Part shown: positions 3,249 through 11,529 of the stretch, piece by piece
Numbering within the stretch: position 1 is the first letter of the stretch
How the letters are laid out: each line of letters starts with the position of its first letter
Source of the DNA: Paramecium tetraurelia
Lineage: Eukaryota > Ciliophora > Oligohymenophorea > Peniculida > Parameciidae
Direction of reading: 5' to 3'
DNA length: 64,000 nucleotides
NCBI RefSeq assembly: GCF_000165425.1
Contig: NW_001798968.1
Span: 128,922 to 192,921 of the forward strand
Translations under genes and position numbers: made by a program
The notes under the pieces: model-generated
The model's input: only the letters and a program-made list of their open reading frames with translations
Told to the model about the DNA's origin: nothing
Database searches by the model: none

Positions 3249-5720
3249 ATGGCATCAAAAAAAATTTTGATTTTGAATACTTTCCTGTTCATCTTAATGG
3301 ATTTGGCTACGATTTCAATCTTGCTTTTTGAATCAGTTTAAGAAGAGATAGGTTAATTATTAACGATTTCATTGATAATTGGATATGGGTCATTCGTTAT
3401 AATGCAACAACTGCTTGTATATACTGAGTGGAAATTGAATATAAAAAGTAAATTAAGTTTGGTTTCATTTTTTGGGAAGATCGTAATTGTTTGGATTGGT
3501 GGAGTCAAATTAATCACTAATTAATACCTATTGATCTTATTTTAAATTTACATGACTTCAGAAAGTTACAGAGAAAACTCATTATAATACTTGTTCGTTT
3601 TTATGATGGTTCTAAATTTATTCGAATTCAAAAAGTTCATTAATTTTGGATATGATTAACTAATAAACTCAATGCAAATTATTATATTGATTGTTCAACA
3701 TTTTTATTAAGTAAAAAAGTCAGATGATAAATATCATTAATCATATGTACAAGTCTCAACTGGAGGTGGATAAATGTAATAAACATTTGCAATGATGCAG
3801 GAATCCAGAAGAAGCATGCCAATGATAAATTCAATAAAGTTGGTGGAAGATGAACCGTGGTTAGACCAGTAAGAATATTATTCTAATTAGCAAATGGTTA
3901 TAATATGAGAAGTATCTTGTACTAGGAAGAGATTTAAAGTTGAAGTTCTACAGTTTCGATCTAAATATTTTGGGAAAATTTTAAGAGATGACAGAAAACT
4001 AGAACGAAATCGTAGATTAGCTGTTAGATTAAGGAGTGAAGTTTATATCAAAATTAGAAAACAGTTAACAATCTCTTTCCTGTCAAAAAGGAGTGATAAC
4101 CTTGAGGTAAGTGCTAGAGAATTAGTTGTAAACATAGATTAATTATGAACATTATTATTAAACATTCCAGATGTAGGGTCAGACTTTAGATGTATCAAAG
4201 TACTTGTTGAATGTATTTGGTTTGATTGGTAGACAATAAATGTATTATGTCATGCATTTTTAACTTGTGCCAAAATTAGCGATCGAGATTAATACTAACA
4301 TTTTCGATATGTGTAAATCCCTTTCTCATGAACTAGGAACAAGTCTCAATTGCATTCAAAGCCTATCAGAAATAGCCTTATAAAAGTCATCGGTTACTCA
4401 AGATATAAAAGATAACATCATTTAACCCATTCTTACAAACAGCCAATAATTAAATCTAATTATATCCAATATTAGAGATTATAGTTCAATCGAAACTGAT
4501 CAATTTTAATTGAGTCTTTCTACATTCAACATCTTTGAGGAAATCAAAGCAATTGCTGATTTCTTTTAGATTACTTGTCAACAAAAAGGAATCCAATTAG
4601 TTTTGCCAACTGAATCTTGTATTATTTTATAATTTATTAGTTCCAATTTTTAATGACCGAGATCGATTTCGCTAAGTTATTTTTTAACTACTGTCGAATG
4701 CTGTTCGTTTCACAATCACTGGCACTATCTAATTATTGATCAAAAAGCAGGATTTTTTCTATGAAATTGTTGTGTCGGATACAGGAATAGGAATGGTTAG
4801 CAATTCTACATTTACATTAGGTTGGTTAAGAAGAGAATAATCTAAGAAGAATCTTAGAATAACGCTTAATGTTGAGAGTATCAGAAAACAGTATCGGTTC
4901 AAGTCTAGGCCTATTTATTAGCAATTTGCTTGTCAAAAAAATGAATGCTGATGATGATTGTAAAATTCAATTCACTTCCAATAAAGCAGGTTCTAGTTTT
5001 TACTTCTTTATCAAAAATATGTCTGAATTCAAAAATAACATTGACAAACTACAATCAGTCAAATTTCATAGAACAATAGTTAGATTCCAAAGCATTAATT
5101 CTTATTATGAAAATATTAATGACATACAAATCAAGTTTGGCTAACATACATTTAAGTCAATAACAAATGGATAATCAAATCTAGATGATGGCAATGTTAC
5201 TGTTTATTCAAAAGAATTCGAAGAAAATAAATAAACTATTCAACCCCTTCAATCCCTCATTCCTTAACTTTAAGATACAATTCAAGCGTATTCTCTTAAA
5301 AGTACATGCTGCTCAAGAGTCCTAATTGTTGATGATGAATACTTTAATATTATGGCTCTATAAATGCTAATGCAATAATACTCTTCCATTTGTGATAAAG
5401 CTTATAATGGTATGGAAGCTATTGAACAAATAAATGAAAAGCTAGCCAACCCTTGTCCAAAATGTTAAAATTGCTGTTATTAACTAATCTTTCTTGACAT
5501 TAACATGCCGATTATGGGTGGAATTGAAGCTGTCAAAATTATTAAAAAAATGATGCAAAATAGAATTATTAAAAAAGTTTATGTTATTGCCAACACTGGC
5601 TTTAGTGATTTGGAAACCAAGGAAAAAGCCTATGATGCTGGAATAGATTATTTCATGACCAAACCTTTAAATATGATGACTTTTAGGAGTATAGCATCCA
5701 AAATATTCCCAAGAGGATGA
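3249..5720 (+). CDS. Membrane-bound hybrid histidine kinase, 800 aa
   Basis: Four exons with introns at 3869-3890, 4619-4640 and 4796-4820; exon lengths sum to 801 codons. Residues 1 to about 170 form several hydrophobic helices, so it is probably an integral membrane sensor. The HisKA H-box is SHELGTSLN with the phosphoacceptor His; Gly replaces the usual Arg of HELRTPLN. The ATPase part has an N-box-like QLLSNAVRFT, a G1 SDTGIGM and a G2 SLGLFIS. A C-terminal receiver domain has the acidic pair in LIVDDE, the Asp in LIFLDINMP and the Lys in MTKPLN. Hybrid kinases of this layout autophosphorylate on His and pass phosphate to their own receiver Asp. The ligand is unknown. The gene is intact and confidently called. 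Confidence 0.93.
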
Positions 5721-6388
5721 ATTAAATTGATATTACTTAAAACTATATATAAATTATTTTCGAATTACCACATGAAATTTTGAATATCTCTTTCTACATA
5801 TTAAAGAATTTCGACTTTGTCACAAATTATAATTCTTTACTTTAATTATAAAGCGAAACATATTCCAAAAACGATATAAAATTATAAGCCAAGATTGATT
5901 CCTTTTTTCACCATTAAAAAATATATTTTATGAAGAGAAAAATGAGTTCATATCTTATTAGTTTAATATATTTTAACAAATATTAATCAAATACTTTTGC
6001 TTGATAATAATGAACCTTCAAATTATAATTATTAATATCAATATTAAAATATGCGATTTGTTTAATGCATATAATTCTGCAATAGACAAAATTATGAGAT
6101 TTATCCTAAAAATCTTATTAAATTTTTGGCATTTCTATGACATAAACAAGCATTTCATTAAAAATTATTATATCAATTATGGTGTTTCATAGCAATGAAA
6201 ATGCTATTAGATCGAAGGTTTTTAGAATCATTTAAGTACACATACTTAATAAATTATAATATAATATAATTAATTGGACTTGTTTTGATAAATAAAAGGA
6301 ATTTAAATATATATAGAAAATAATGTTCAAAATAGACGCTCAAGTTAATTTTTATAGTTCTTATTCATTTAATGGTTTTTTAGAAGAG
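5721..6388. other. AT-rich spacer
   Basis: Convergent spacer between the kinase and the minus-strand membrane protein. One short open frame at 6001-6192 has skewed, non-protein-like composition and was not accepted. Confidence 0.5.
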
Positions 6389-7192
6389 TCATTCAAATTT
6401 TATTATTCTCGCTTTTTGCTATTGATTATTTAAAAACTGTTACTTAAAAGCTCTGATTGCTGCCAAGATAATGACACCAATTATTATGGCAACTAGACCA
6501 TAAAGGTGAGTATTAGAACTTGAATCAATCGAGAAGTTCTCTACAAACAATTAACCTTTGATTGATCCGCTTACTGCTTATGTGGGACTGCCTTCAGGTA
6601 AAGATTTTGAGTATTTTTAAAGTAAACTTATTTATTCAGATGAAATTGGGAGTGGATCTGGCAGTAAATAAACAATTTGATCGCAATTCTCATATTCAAG
6701 ATAATAGGCCATATTTTCCAATTATTTTGCTAAATCCATCAATCGCATTTAAAAATTGTTTTGGATTTAAAAGACTGGGTTTTCTTTTAATTCATTATCT
6801 AATTCTACTGAAATTGCAAACACTGCTTTTGAAGGAGTAGATGTAGCATTTATTTCTTTCATATTTAGTTGAATTTCACATTTTATTTACTAATTATTAG
6901 ATAACTAATGAATAGCTGGACAATATATTTCAAAATTGGATGGTCCAAATGTTAAACCTCCAGGTACTTATTTAATTTAGATTTTGGACTTATCTTTGAC
7001 TTCATAATCATCTCCAAATCCGATTACATATTCGCCTTCTAATTTAACTGAGATTCTCTTGACTGCCTAATTGAAAATATAGGATATTATTAATACATAA
7101 ACCCATTCTTCTTAATTTGGATAAGTTAAGTATGAATTTTGAATGCAATCTGCGAAGACTTGCTAAAGAGCTAACAAGAATGTTAAGAGCAT
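6389..7192 (-). CDS. Type I membrane protein, 257 aa, unknown family
   Basis: Two exons with a 30-nt intron at 7067-7096. The start MLLTFLLALQQVFA is a clear signal peptide. Near the C-terminus a single hydrophobic segment, LYGLVAIIIGVIILAAI, is followed by a basic Gln-rich tail. This predicts a lumenal or extracellular domain of about 200 residues and a short cytosolic tail. I do not recognise the lumenal domain. Because the intron length is a multiple of three and holds no TGA, the retained form would also be open, so the splice is inferred from GT-AG ends and size. A plus-strand frame at 6562-6840 is an antisense shadow. Confidence 0.85.
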
Positions 7193-7357
7193 TATTTAAT
7201 GAAAAATCAAGGAGATTTATATAAAATTATTGAATAAAAATAATGAGTGAGAATATTACTCGATATTAACATTAAGCCAATAATAATAAATTTAGAGTTG
7301 TAATAAAGTAGATGATATTTAGATAATGATTTCAGATAACAAGGCATAAATTTGTAC

Positions 7358-7693
7358 ATGAATAATTAATTGGTATATTTGATTTTTAAGAAATTAATCA
7401 GAATTTCTTTTTGTGAATTCCCATTTAAATATTTTGAATATGTTGCTCGTTATTTAATTAATTTTGGTATTCAGCTTGGGGAGTGGAAATTAATTAACAA
7501 AATAAAGGAAATTAAATGGAGACATAAATTAATTAAGATGGAGAGAGAGTCAGACAAATGGATTTGGATTGTAGATGGTGTATTTGACTGTTAATTATTT
7601 GTAATTAAATAAATAATATATATAAATTAGTAATTAAAAAGATAGATAAAAATGAAAGAAATAAGTGTATTATGTAAAATGTTTGTATGTTGA
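7358..7693 (+). pseudogene. Possible relic of a G-x-W (MORN-like) repeat gene
   Basis: An open frame of 111 codons has a protein-like middle (about 7400-7595) with spaced Gly-Trp motifs (GEWKL, then KWIWIVDG). These resemble the short repeats of large ciliate proteins with G-x-W or MORN-like units. The end of the frame is AT-rich filler. There is only one recognisable repeat block, and no signal or intron. It sits in the 575-bp spacer between two divergently oriented genes. It may be a decayed fragment or an accident of composition. Confidence 0.3.
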
Positions 7694-7767: not shown

Positions 7768-8843
7768 ATGAGTGCAAATGATCTATCCAAGCCTGAAAGT
7801 CTGGATAACTTAAGCTAACCATCTTCATAGGAAGGACAATAGAGGAAATAATATAAGGTTCATCGTTTGGGAAACAGGAAATAATTATCCAATTAAAATT
7901 ATTACATTAAGGAACAGGCATCAAGCAGAGAGGAGAGAAAATTGAAATCGTATTTGTAGAGGATTGAAGAGTAACAAAAATTAGAAGAGGTAAGTCACCT
8001 TTAACTTTAGTTTTTATTAAGGCAGCCTTATTGAAACGTAAGCGTTCCAAGGTATTTAAAGCTTATTATTCAAGCCAAACCAGGAGACTAAGAGTAGTGA
8101 AACTTAGGAAGCTCCAAGGCAAATTGATGAAGTCATGTATTATACCATAAATATAATCTGAAGTATGCCAATATAAGCCACAGTGTTGTTGAATCCTTTG
8201 TTGGTGCCATAGTAGTCTCAATTAGATGTGACAGCATAAACAAAGCTTCGTCTAAATCCCAAGCTCAAGATGAAAGTATCTTAATTTAAAATATTTTTCA
8301 AAGGAGAAACATCATATATTCCTTTATCTCTCTGATTGGTACGAGAAATGTGTTGACAATGTGCAAAAACTCAATTCTGGAGCCACTTAGTCATATTCGC
8401 CACAAAAAGTGGGCAAATGTGATGTGACTAATATACAATCAATTAATTAAGATGTGTATTAGGACACTCTCATTTTAATAAAAAATTTTAAACATTAATA
8501 TTAATAATAGAATGGAAATGATTCAAAAGAGTTATTAAGCAAATACTCTGATAAGAAATTTTTAGAGACGTCATATTCGCCACAAAAAGTGGGCAAATGT
8601 GATGTGACTAATATACAATCAATTAATTAAGATGTGTATTAGGACACTCTCATTTTAATAAAAAATTTTAAACATTAATATTAATAATAGAATGGAAATG
8701 ATTCAAAAGAGTTATTAAGCAAATACTCTGATAAGAAATTTTTAGAGACAATTTTGAGAGATAATAAATAATAAATAAATAAAAAAATTGGATTTGAAAA
8801 GGTTCAAATATCAAATGGGAAATTTAATTCAAAGAAGCATTGA
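7768..8843 (+). CDS. Unknown protein with exact internal duplication, 330 aa
   Basis: Four exons; inferred introns 7994-8021 (28 nt, GTCACC start), about 8137-8163 (27 nt) and about 8274-8301 (28 nt). Exon sum is 331 codons, ending at TGA 8841-8843. The basic, Gln-rich N-terminus runs into a short heptad-like stretch (RIEEQQKLEE), faintly bZIP-like, but the canonical basic motif is not there. From 8391 the coding sequence carries two copies of the same 60-codon unit. After the second copy the frame reads into low-complexity Lys/Asn/Gln and stops, while a better coding frame continues at +1 (see 8815-9275). The original protein was therefore probably longer and this C-terminus is likely aberrant. 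Confidence 0.65.
8391..8750 (+). repeat. Exact 180-bp in-frame tandem duplication
   Basis: Bases 8391-8570 and 8571-8750 are the same apart from the last base of each unit (g versus a). The period is 180, which is 60 codons, so the reading frame is kept through both copies. Identity this high implies a very recent event or an assembly artefact. Confidence 0.95.
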
Positions 8844-9275
8844 TATAAATTACAACTCATTTTATAAATTTAATAACAGTCATCTAAACTTCTACTTCTC
8901 ATCCTTTAAGGAGAACAATATAGAAGCTTACACTTATTTTAATTAATTTCATAAGTCAATTTATTATGAAAATCAATAATAACTGCTTATTAAAGATATT
9001 TTAGAGTATATTAGGAATTATAATACTGTTTTACATATGTTCCTATGATCTTATTCATGAAAGTTCTTGGGAAAAAAACTATGTCCAAATAAATATATTT
9101 TTATTCAGTAACAACAACCACATGAAGATATGATTCTCCACTGAAAAACAAGAAAGTTAGAAAATTTAAACCCTTTAGATATCAAGCAACTTAAATTGAA
9201 TATTTAACTATGATTGAAATAAAAATGAGTAGATCTCTTTATGAAGCTTCATCATCTTATTCTCTATTTCAGTGA
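8815..9275 (+). pseudogene. Shifted C-terminal coding segment of the upstream gene
   Basis: Strong coding continues in the +1 frame of the gene above. It is open from about 8757 and its first ATG is at 8815. Two introns fit, a 36-nt one near 9030-9065 and a 20-nt one near 9108-9127, ending at TGA 9273-9275. The protein is rich in Tyr, Phe, Asn and Gln and is unrecognised. The first ATG overlaps the preceding frame, and no GT-AG intron can join the frames. I therefore infer an indel in the A-rich repeat around 8755-8790. The end overlaps the convergent kinase gene by 24 bp. Confidence 0.55.
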
Positions 9276-11529
9276 ACAAACTCTTTTGTGTAAATTAGTG
9301 CCACATAAACCATTCTATAGCCAAGCTTTGTAATCAATATTGTCCTTTGAATTAAATCCCATATTTGTAGGAGATGTGTTTTATCTATCCATGAAAAAAT
9401 TATTTTAAGAAGTTATTCGCTTCAAGCCAATCAATTTAGATTGTTAAGGAATGGCTGCTGTATTAATCTAAATAGGTTAAACAAAAGACGACTACCTATA
9501 AATTTAAATAAATGACTTTACTAAGATTTAATTCGTTTTTATAAAGAATTAGATTACTCTATATTATTTTTCTATTTCTAATTAATCAATTGAGATCCTC
9601 TTGATTACTGTTTCGATAGACAATTGGATCCTGGGCTGTTCTTTTTGAGATTATACTTTTAGGTCAATTACATTTAGATTTATGTTATCATCATAAAATG
9701 TTACTTGAGTACTTTACTTTGTTCAATTTTCATTTACTTTTATTGAATTACATCAAAATAAAATGTCTTAAAAATTTTAATATCTTTTTATAAACCTGAT
9801 TTTCCTAGAAGCTTTTCCCTTGTTTCCAATTCCCCTTTGAGCAATTCATTTTGATCATAATGAAATTGTAACTAATTTGGTTTGAATGGAGGCTCAATGT
9901 TCTTTTATAAAATTTAAATCCAATCACATCCTTTAAACCAGGGATGGAGCATCAATTCTTATAAACCATTCTGAGCACCCAATCTACTTTAAGGTTTCTT
10001 ACATAAAAGTCCTTTAAGTAGATCTTTGATATCATCAGTTAAATTGATTTTGTCTGGGAATGTCAACTCTTCACTTAAAATTGATTCATAAATTTCTTCA
10101 GTGTCCCTAGAATAATAAGGAGGTAATCCTGTAACTAATTCATATAAAAGGGCACCTAAACAATAATGATCCACTTAAACATTGTGACCAACTTTCAATA
10201 ACATTTCAGGAGCCATATATTCAGGAGAACCACAAAAACTATATGCATAATCATCTTCATTCATGTTTGGCTTTGATAATCCAAAATCTGCAATTCTAAT
10301 GTGGCCATCCATATCTATCAATATATTCTCTGGTTTTATATCTCTATAGACAACAGATATTGAATGTAAATAATAAATGGCCAAACAAATTTCAGTAAAA
10401 TAAAATCTGGCTTGATCCTCAGTCATCCTCTTCACCTATTTCAATTACCAAAATAACTCTCCACCACTGCAAAACTCTAAGACAAAAACAATGAAGTTTT
10501 TAGACTCAAAGGCATATTCTAATTTATTTATAAAGGGATGATCCAACACAGTCATTATGTCTCTCTCATTTTACACAATTCCTATATGATTAGTTGATCA
10601 TCTACCTTATTTTTTACGTTAGATAATAAATTCTTTATCTATCAATTTCATCGCATAAAATCTGCCATCTGATTTCTTTTTCACTAGATAAACTCTTGAA
10701 AATCCTCCAACACCAATACATTTGATAAAAATGAAATCCTTCAATGTTATCTAAGATCCTTGAATGCATCCATAAAATGGTTATAAATTTAATGTTTATC
10801 CACTGAATATATCCAAGGGTTTATTTAATTACTAAATGTAAAAATCAATGGGTAAATTTTTATCAACAGTATGGAATGATACAATTTCCATATCTAGACA
10901 TTCATTGCCCGTCTCACATTGTAATTTATTTTTATTAGACGAAGATCCAGTCGTTGAATATACTACTATATTTTTTTTCATTTCTGTTTTCAAATACTCC
11001 ATCATATAACCTGTACTTTTTTACGGATCCATTGTAAACTTATATTATTAATTCAAAGAATGAACCACTACAACAATTTAATTTGCTACACTTACAAAAC
11101 TCTAGTTTTTTATAGTCTATATAAATGATTTCTGAAGTTAATTAGAATTGGTTCTTCGAGTATCAGTAGTGGCAATTGTCTTTAGAATATTGGATGAGTC
11201 TGATATGTTATTCTGTTAATTAGATTTCTACGTAGACAATTATTTATGACTGGTCATTAGTTTTAATAATTCCTTTTTGTATTATTTCCCCTGTAAGAGT
11301 TATCCTTAACATTTCTATAATTGTTTCTAATCTATCCCTTGAAACCCAGAACTTTAATTAGTTTTATGAGTTGGACTCTGACTAAGCAGTCCACTTGGAT
11401 TGAAGGATTGACTCAATTTGATGTTACTTTTACTCGTACAACTACAAATTACAATGGCCAATACATTCTTAATTTATTTTATTGTACGATCTCTTATAAC
11501 TATTGTTAAGGACGAGTTAAATGCTGCAT
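9252..11529 (-). CDS. AGC-type serine/threonine protein kinase, 731 aa
   Basis: Four exons with introns at 11442-11464, 10582-10605 and 9717-9751; the exon sum is 732 codons. A Ser/Asn/Gln-rich N-terminus of about 270 residues precedes the kinase domain. Motifs: glycine loop GVGGFSRVYLV, VAIK-type Lys in YAMKLIDK, catalytic loop YRDIKPEN, DFGLSK, and APE in YMAPE. The order and the post-DFG region FCGSPEYMAPEML place it with AGC kinases (PKA, PKG, S6K, AKT-like). A C-tail with PPFKP follows the kinase domain. All catalytic residues seen are present, so it is probably active. No cyclic-nucleotide-binding or PH domain is evident. The upstream start at 11529 was chosen because the spliced frame is continuous from there. 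Confidence 0.92.

Follow-up and report, generated by a model that had tools for sequence, protein, structure and literature searches.

Internal duplication of domains or exon segments is known within protein genes. Small tandem duplications at double-strand breaks can arise by fill-in and end joining, a route described in other organisms (PMC8355091). In Paramecium tetraurelia, end joining that depends on Ligase IV and Xrcc4 is reported to act in programmed genome rearrangements (PMC3077386). Recent segmental duplications and repeat expansions have also been described in Paramecium, where they were seen through duplicated germline IESs (PMC3464196). According to published analyses of P. tetraurelia, about 98% of the introns are 20–30 nt long and TGA is the sole stop codon (PMC5485702).

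The locus described here lies in a window of 64,000 nucleotides, which is the whole stretch of DNA that was analysed (G+C 27.8%, no N). The last exon of a predicted five-exon gene contains two adjacent direct copies of a 180-bp unit, on which Tandem Repeats Finder and direct comparison agree. Most likely, this array is a real and recent in-frame internal tandem duplication in one of five known members of a gene family and involves no frameshift. The probability of this reading is put at about 0.75. The features of the locus are as follows; the paralogues of the gene are denoted by their contigs, C62, C16, C217 and C50.

7768..8843, plus strand: predicted five-exon gene of unknown function, 321 amino acids and a TGA stop (ciliate code; model from sequence comparison)
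7990..8021, plus strand: predicted intron 1, 32 nt, GT..AG; its removal joins the frames; identical in the C62 paralogue
8052..8074, plus strand: predicted intron 2, 23 nt, GT..AG; identical in the C62 paralogue
8137..8163, plus strand: predicted intron 3, 27 nt, GT..AG; 26 nt in the C62 paralogue, with the indel confined to the intron
8276..8303, plus strand: predicted intron 4, 28 nt, GT..AG; identical in the C62 paralogue
8390..8569, plus strand: copy 1 of the unit, 180 bp, 60 codons, within exon 5
8570..8749, plus strand: copy 2 of the unit, identical to copy 1; junction without microhomology
8750..8843, plus strand: end of the coding sequence including an A-rich stretch and the TGA stop, from alignment with the paralogues
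8844..9237, no strand assigned: intergenic sequence and 3' UTRs of two converging genes; limits approximate, from TGA-free runs and the lack of a translated match
9238..10597, minus strand: predicted 3' part of a convergent protein-kinase gene, from the open frame 9431–10597 and the tblastx match at 9238–9547

The spliced translation is open from the ATG at 7768 to the TGA at 8841–8843 and aligns over its full length with the C62 paralogue. An open reading of the gene requires TAA and TAG to encode glutamine, TGA to serve as the stop, and introns of 23–32 bases to be removed. These introns are predicted from the sequence. At 32 nt, intron 1 slightly exceeds the 20–30 nt range into which about 98% of P. 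tetraurelia introns fall (PMC5485702). Code and intron length otherwise agree with descriptions of Paramecium, and the sequence probably comes from a Paramecium macronuclear genome, perhaps that of P. tetraurelia.

Both units of the array lie inside exon 5 and keep the reading frame, each with 60 codons. All 180 bases agree between the two copies. A chance origin is excluded, the log10 of the expectation for independent bases being about -81. The initial annotation had correctly recognized an in-frame array of two 180-bp units and had placed it at 8391–8750; the correct limits are 8390–8749. It had also reported a one-base difference between the units. This mismatch arises because its register, which is one base late, compares 8570 (G) with 8750 (A), a position just past the array.

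A protein search of the genome yielded 14 matching pieces, which correspond to at least five loci, namely this gene and four paralogues. The unit is present once in each of the four paralogues found. The closest one, C62, comprises 261 residues and has its introns at the same places. The two proteins align end to end, with one 60-residue unit as the sole gap. The C16, C217 and C50 paralogues are more distant (41 to 47% identity in the best pieces). Inside the unit region these three contain seven residues that are absent from the window gene and from C62.

When the array was used as a DNA query of the assembly (69,072,372 bases in 231 contigs), matches were obtained at this place and at C62 only. 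The locus was therefore not detected elsewhere with a different number of copies. The window locus and the C62 locus are situated in collinear blocks, with matches both upstream and downstream in the same order, as expected for a pair of whole-genome-duplication duplicates. The collinearity with C62 on both sides shows that no unrelated loci were misjoined here. The upstream neighbour of the gene is a minus-strand open frame of 386 codons (6389–7549), and the DNA there (about 6313–7227) shows a match of about 81% to the C62 block. The plus-strand open frames at 3826–5720 presumably encode a hybrid sensor histidine kinase with a response-regulator domain.

After the array, the same frame runs for 94 bases, through and including the TGA at 8841–8843. 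An alignment of 8750–8843 with C62 contains no indel across the A-rich stretch; 11 of the 94 bases are substituted and the TGA is common to both genes. The C-terminal region is also shared by C16, C217 and C50, whose ends fall into one alignment column with that of the gene. A frame break within the A-rich repeat, as proposed in the initial annotation, is not compatible with this alignment, the shared stop and the C-terminus common to three more paralogues. By sequence comparison the gene end is placed at 8843, and the apparent frame break is taken to be this normal gene end. A neighbouring frame stays open over 96 codons (8758–9048), across and beyond the gene end, and is probably the one that had been followed. 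A frameshifted gene or pseudogene was also considered and rejected, as the frame is not lost after the array relative to the intact relatives and the 94 bases are free of indels.

Coding sequence had further been proposed to continue for 500 bp up to the kinase gene. On the plus strand of 8844–9430, the longest TGA-free run in any frame amounts to 95 codons. This is below the median of first-order resamples of the same region (121 codons), 806 of 1000 of which reach or exceed 95 codons. For 9238–9547, tblastx against the paralogous block gives the best match in minus-strand frames (E 6e-13, compared with 4e-8 for plus-strand frames). Both results speak against the proposed continuation. The segment 8849–9020 has about 70% DNA identity to the paralogous block, with gaps, and no translated match to it at E 1e-3. 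These ~170 bases after the stop fit non-coding sequence of a duplicate pair, as expected. The minus-strand open frame 9431–10597 contains what we take to be kinase-like motifs, in line with the strand of the best translated match at 9238–9547.

Between the unit and its counterpart in C62, 23 of 180 bases differ, compared with 0 of 180 between the two copies. Because of this contrast, the duplication appears to be young, unless conversion between the copies conceals its age. The upper 95% bound for zero differences is about 3/180, and at equal rates the duplication would be younger than about one eighth of the divergence of the pair, with the same reservation. The pair is a soft clock, because gene conversion between whole-genome-duplication duplicates is reported to be widespread in Paramecium (PMC11334263). 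As in a recent tandem duplication, the copies are adjacent and direct, they are closer to each other than to their relatives, and a single unit is present in 4/4 paralogues found in the same genome. The identity of the copies and the single unit in the paralogues support the recency that the initial annotation had claimed.

In a codon comparison of the gene with C62 (n = 261, one unit left out), there are 192 identical codons, 48 with synonymous and 21 with non-synonymous differences. The corresponding estimates, again with one unit left out, are dN 0.038 and dS 0.43 (NG86) or dN 0.046 and dS 0.26 (YN00). As dN is low relative to dS, the protein is under constraint, and therefore mainly in-frame duplications are expected to persist. 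The parts of exon 5 differ from C62 at about 12% of the bases (10/86, 23/180 and 11/94). In the stretch 7985–8080, which comprises introns 1 and 2 with their surroundings and was chosen after being seen, 2 of 96 bases differ. This low divergence possibly reflects a gene-conversion tract, or constraint.

Identical copies and random-looking breakpoints without shared bases would also fit an assembly artefact, an alternative that the initial annotation had named. In this case two contigs with a true overlap of 180 bases would have been joined end to end, the gap between them closed with the overlap left unmerged, and the second unit would not be present in the organism. The fact that the array is the sole one of its kind in the 243,001 bases surveyed points in the same direction. 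On the other hand, exact 180-base overlaps are normally merged in assembly and Sanger reads are usually longer than the 360-bp array. The strain 51 reference of P. tetraurelia is described as built from 13x Sanger reads (PMC3464196). In its pipeline 442 of 861 sequencing gaps were filled with short-read contigs, and this gap filling favours an artefact if this reference is the source of the window (PMC3464196). The collinearity with C62 on both sides of the locus argues against it, as does the in-frame length of the array, which an artefact need not have (1/3). The lack of any other such array in the 179,001 bases surveyed outside the window, a small sample, can also be counted against it. All in all, an artefact is the less likely reading. 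Alternatively, the duplication may be older, its adjacent copies having been homogenized by gene conversion or by recurrent loss and gain. Conversion is reported to be widespread between whole-genome-duplication duplicates in Paramecium (PMC11334263) and could explain the 2/96 differences around introns 1 and 2. This reading is nevertheless very unlikely: the closest paralogue has a single unit, so that the duplication postdates the split of the pair or was lost there, and the four paralogues found contain no divergent trace of an older array.

It is barely credible that germline and soma differ in copy number, either because the second unit was made during genome rearrangement and became fixed in the somatic macronucleus alone, or because it acts as a cryptic segment that can be excised between two identical TA sites. 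For the cryptic IES, the best TA-to-TA rotation of the unit scores 12 of 14 against the IES-end consensus; 173 of 1000 shuffles score equally well or better, and nothing in these data supports this reading. The initial annotation had attributed the duplication and the adjoining frame break to one accident. The open 96-codon frame at 8758–9048 may suggest such an event, although frames of this kind are common with TGA as the sole stop. Behind the array, C62 has the same frame, length and stop and shows no indel, and three more paralogues have the C-terminus in common with the gene. The idea of a single accident falls because there is no frame break, and next to no weight can be given to it. A real and recent duplication without a frameshift is the preferred reading.

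Tandem duplications were surveyed in 243,001 bases, consisting of the window, 17 stretches of 10 kb and the stretch that contains the C62 paralogue (L003). The criterion was an exact run that covers half the period or more and is no shorter than 20 bases, for periods of 20 to 1999. Only the array described here was found; the window had been picked for this array and L003 for the paralogue. The remainder outside the window, a small sample of 179,001 bases (~0.26% of the genome), contains 0 arrays. In the window, Tandem Repeats Finder lists six further rows, all imperfect and with periods of 11 to 22. No exact match to a 35-base stretch of the unit was found in genome_contigs or viral_contigs, from which records of the same genome are possibly excluded; this is as expected for a ciliate.

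The preferred reading implies a 180-bp tandem duplication inside the last exon of one family member. Frame, C-terminal tail and stop would have been kept because the unit is intron-free and its length is divisible by three, and the protein would have grown from about 261 to 321 residues. A staggered break with fill-in on both sides, closed by end joining, could produce an exact head-to-tail copy without microhomology. If so, selection would have kept the array solely because 180 bp add whole codons and every splice site is left intact. The junction between the units has 0 bases of homology on either side, as end joining after fill-in would leave it; in the local base composition, such a junction occurs by chance with a probability of 0.46. 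Together with the in-frame length, for which the chance is 1/3 without selection, this junction is for that reason weak evidence on the mechanism.

A Pfam scan of the 261-residue single-unit paralogue C62 gave one match, which is below the threshold (E 0.087, 12.9 bits, cut-off 27). Among solved structures, nothing better than E 0.26 was obtained for this protein and nothing better than E 0.048 for an exon 5 profile built from the four paralogues. The models obtained for exon 5 with AlphaFold2 show helices but are of poor quality, with a mean pLDDT of 41.4 for two units and of 59.5 for the single-unit paralogue. At this low confidence the added unit is predicted to be helical. Its likely effect would be one more helical segment near the C-terminus.

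Most probably, the array is a real and ordinary internal duplication that adjoins a normal gene end. The derived state is present in one duplicate and the ancestral state in the other, and the pair could therefore be a clean and datable example in a study of how internal repeats begin in constrained proteins. With TGA as the sole stop and introns of 20–35 bases, what looks like a frame change is often an intron or the end of a gene. A duplicate gene should be consulted before a frameshift is called.

Compared with internal duplications of domains or exon segments, the array is alike in that a coding segment is repeated in frame and the rest of the gene is unchanged; it differs in that no known domain was matched by Pfam in the single-unit paralogue. 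The small tandem duplications described at double-strand breaks and attributed to fill-in and end joining are likewise head-to-tail and exact, and the junction observed here is consistent with theirs (PMC8355091). The insertions described in that system are short (<100 bp), whereas the unit of the array has 180 bp and exceeds this size. The recent segmental duplications and repeat expansions reported in Paramecium were recognized by means of duplicated germline IESs, whereas the unit described here lies within a gene whose four known relatives are without the repeat (PMC3464196).
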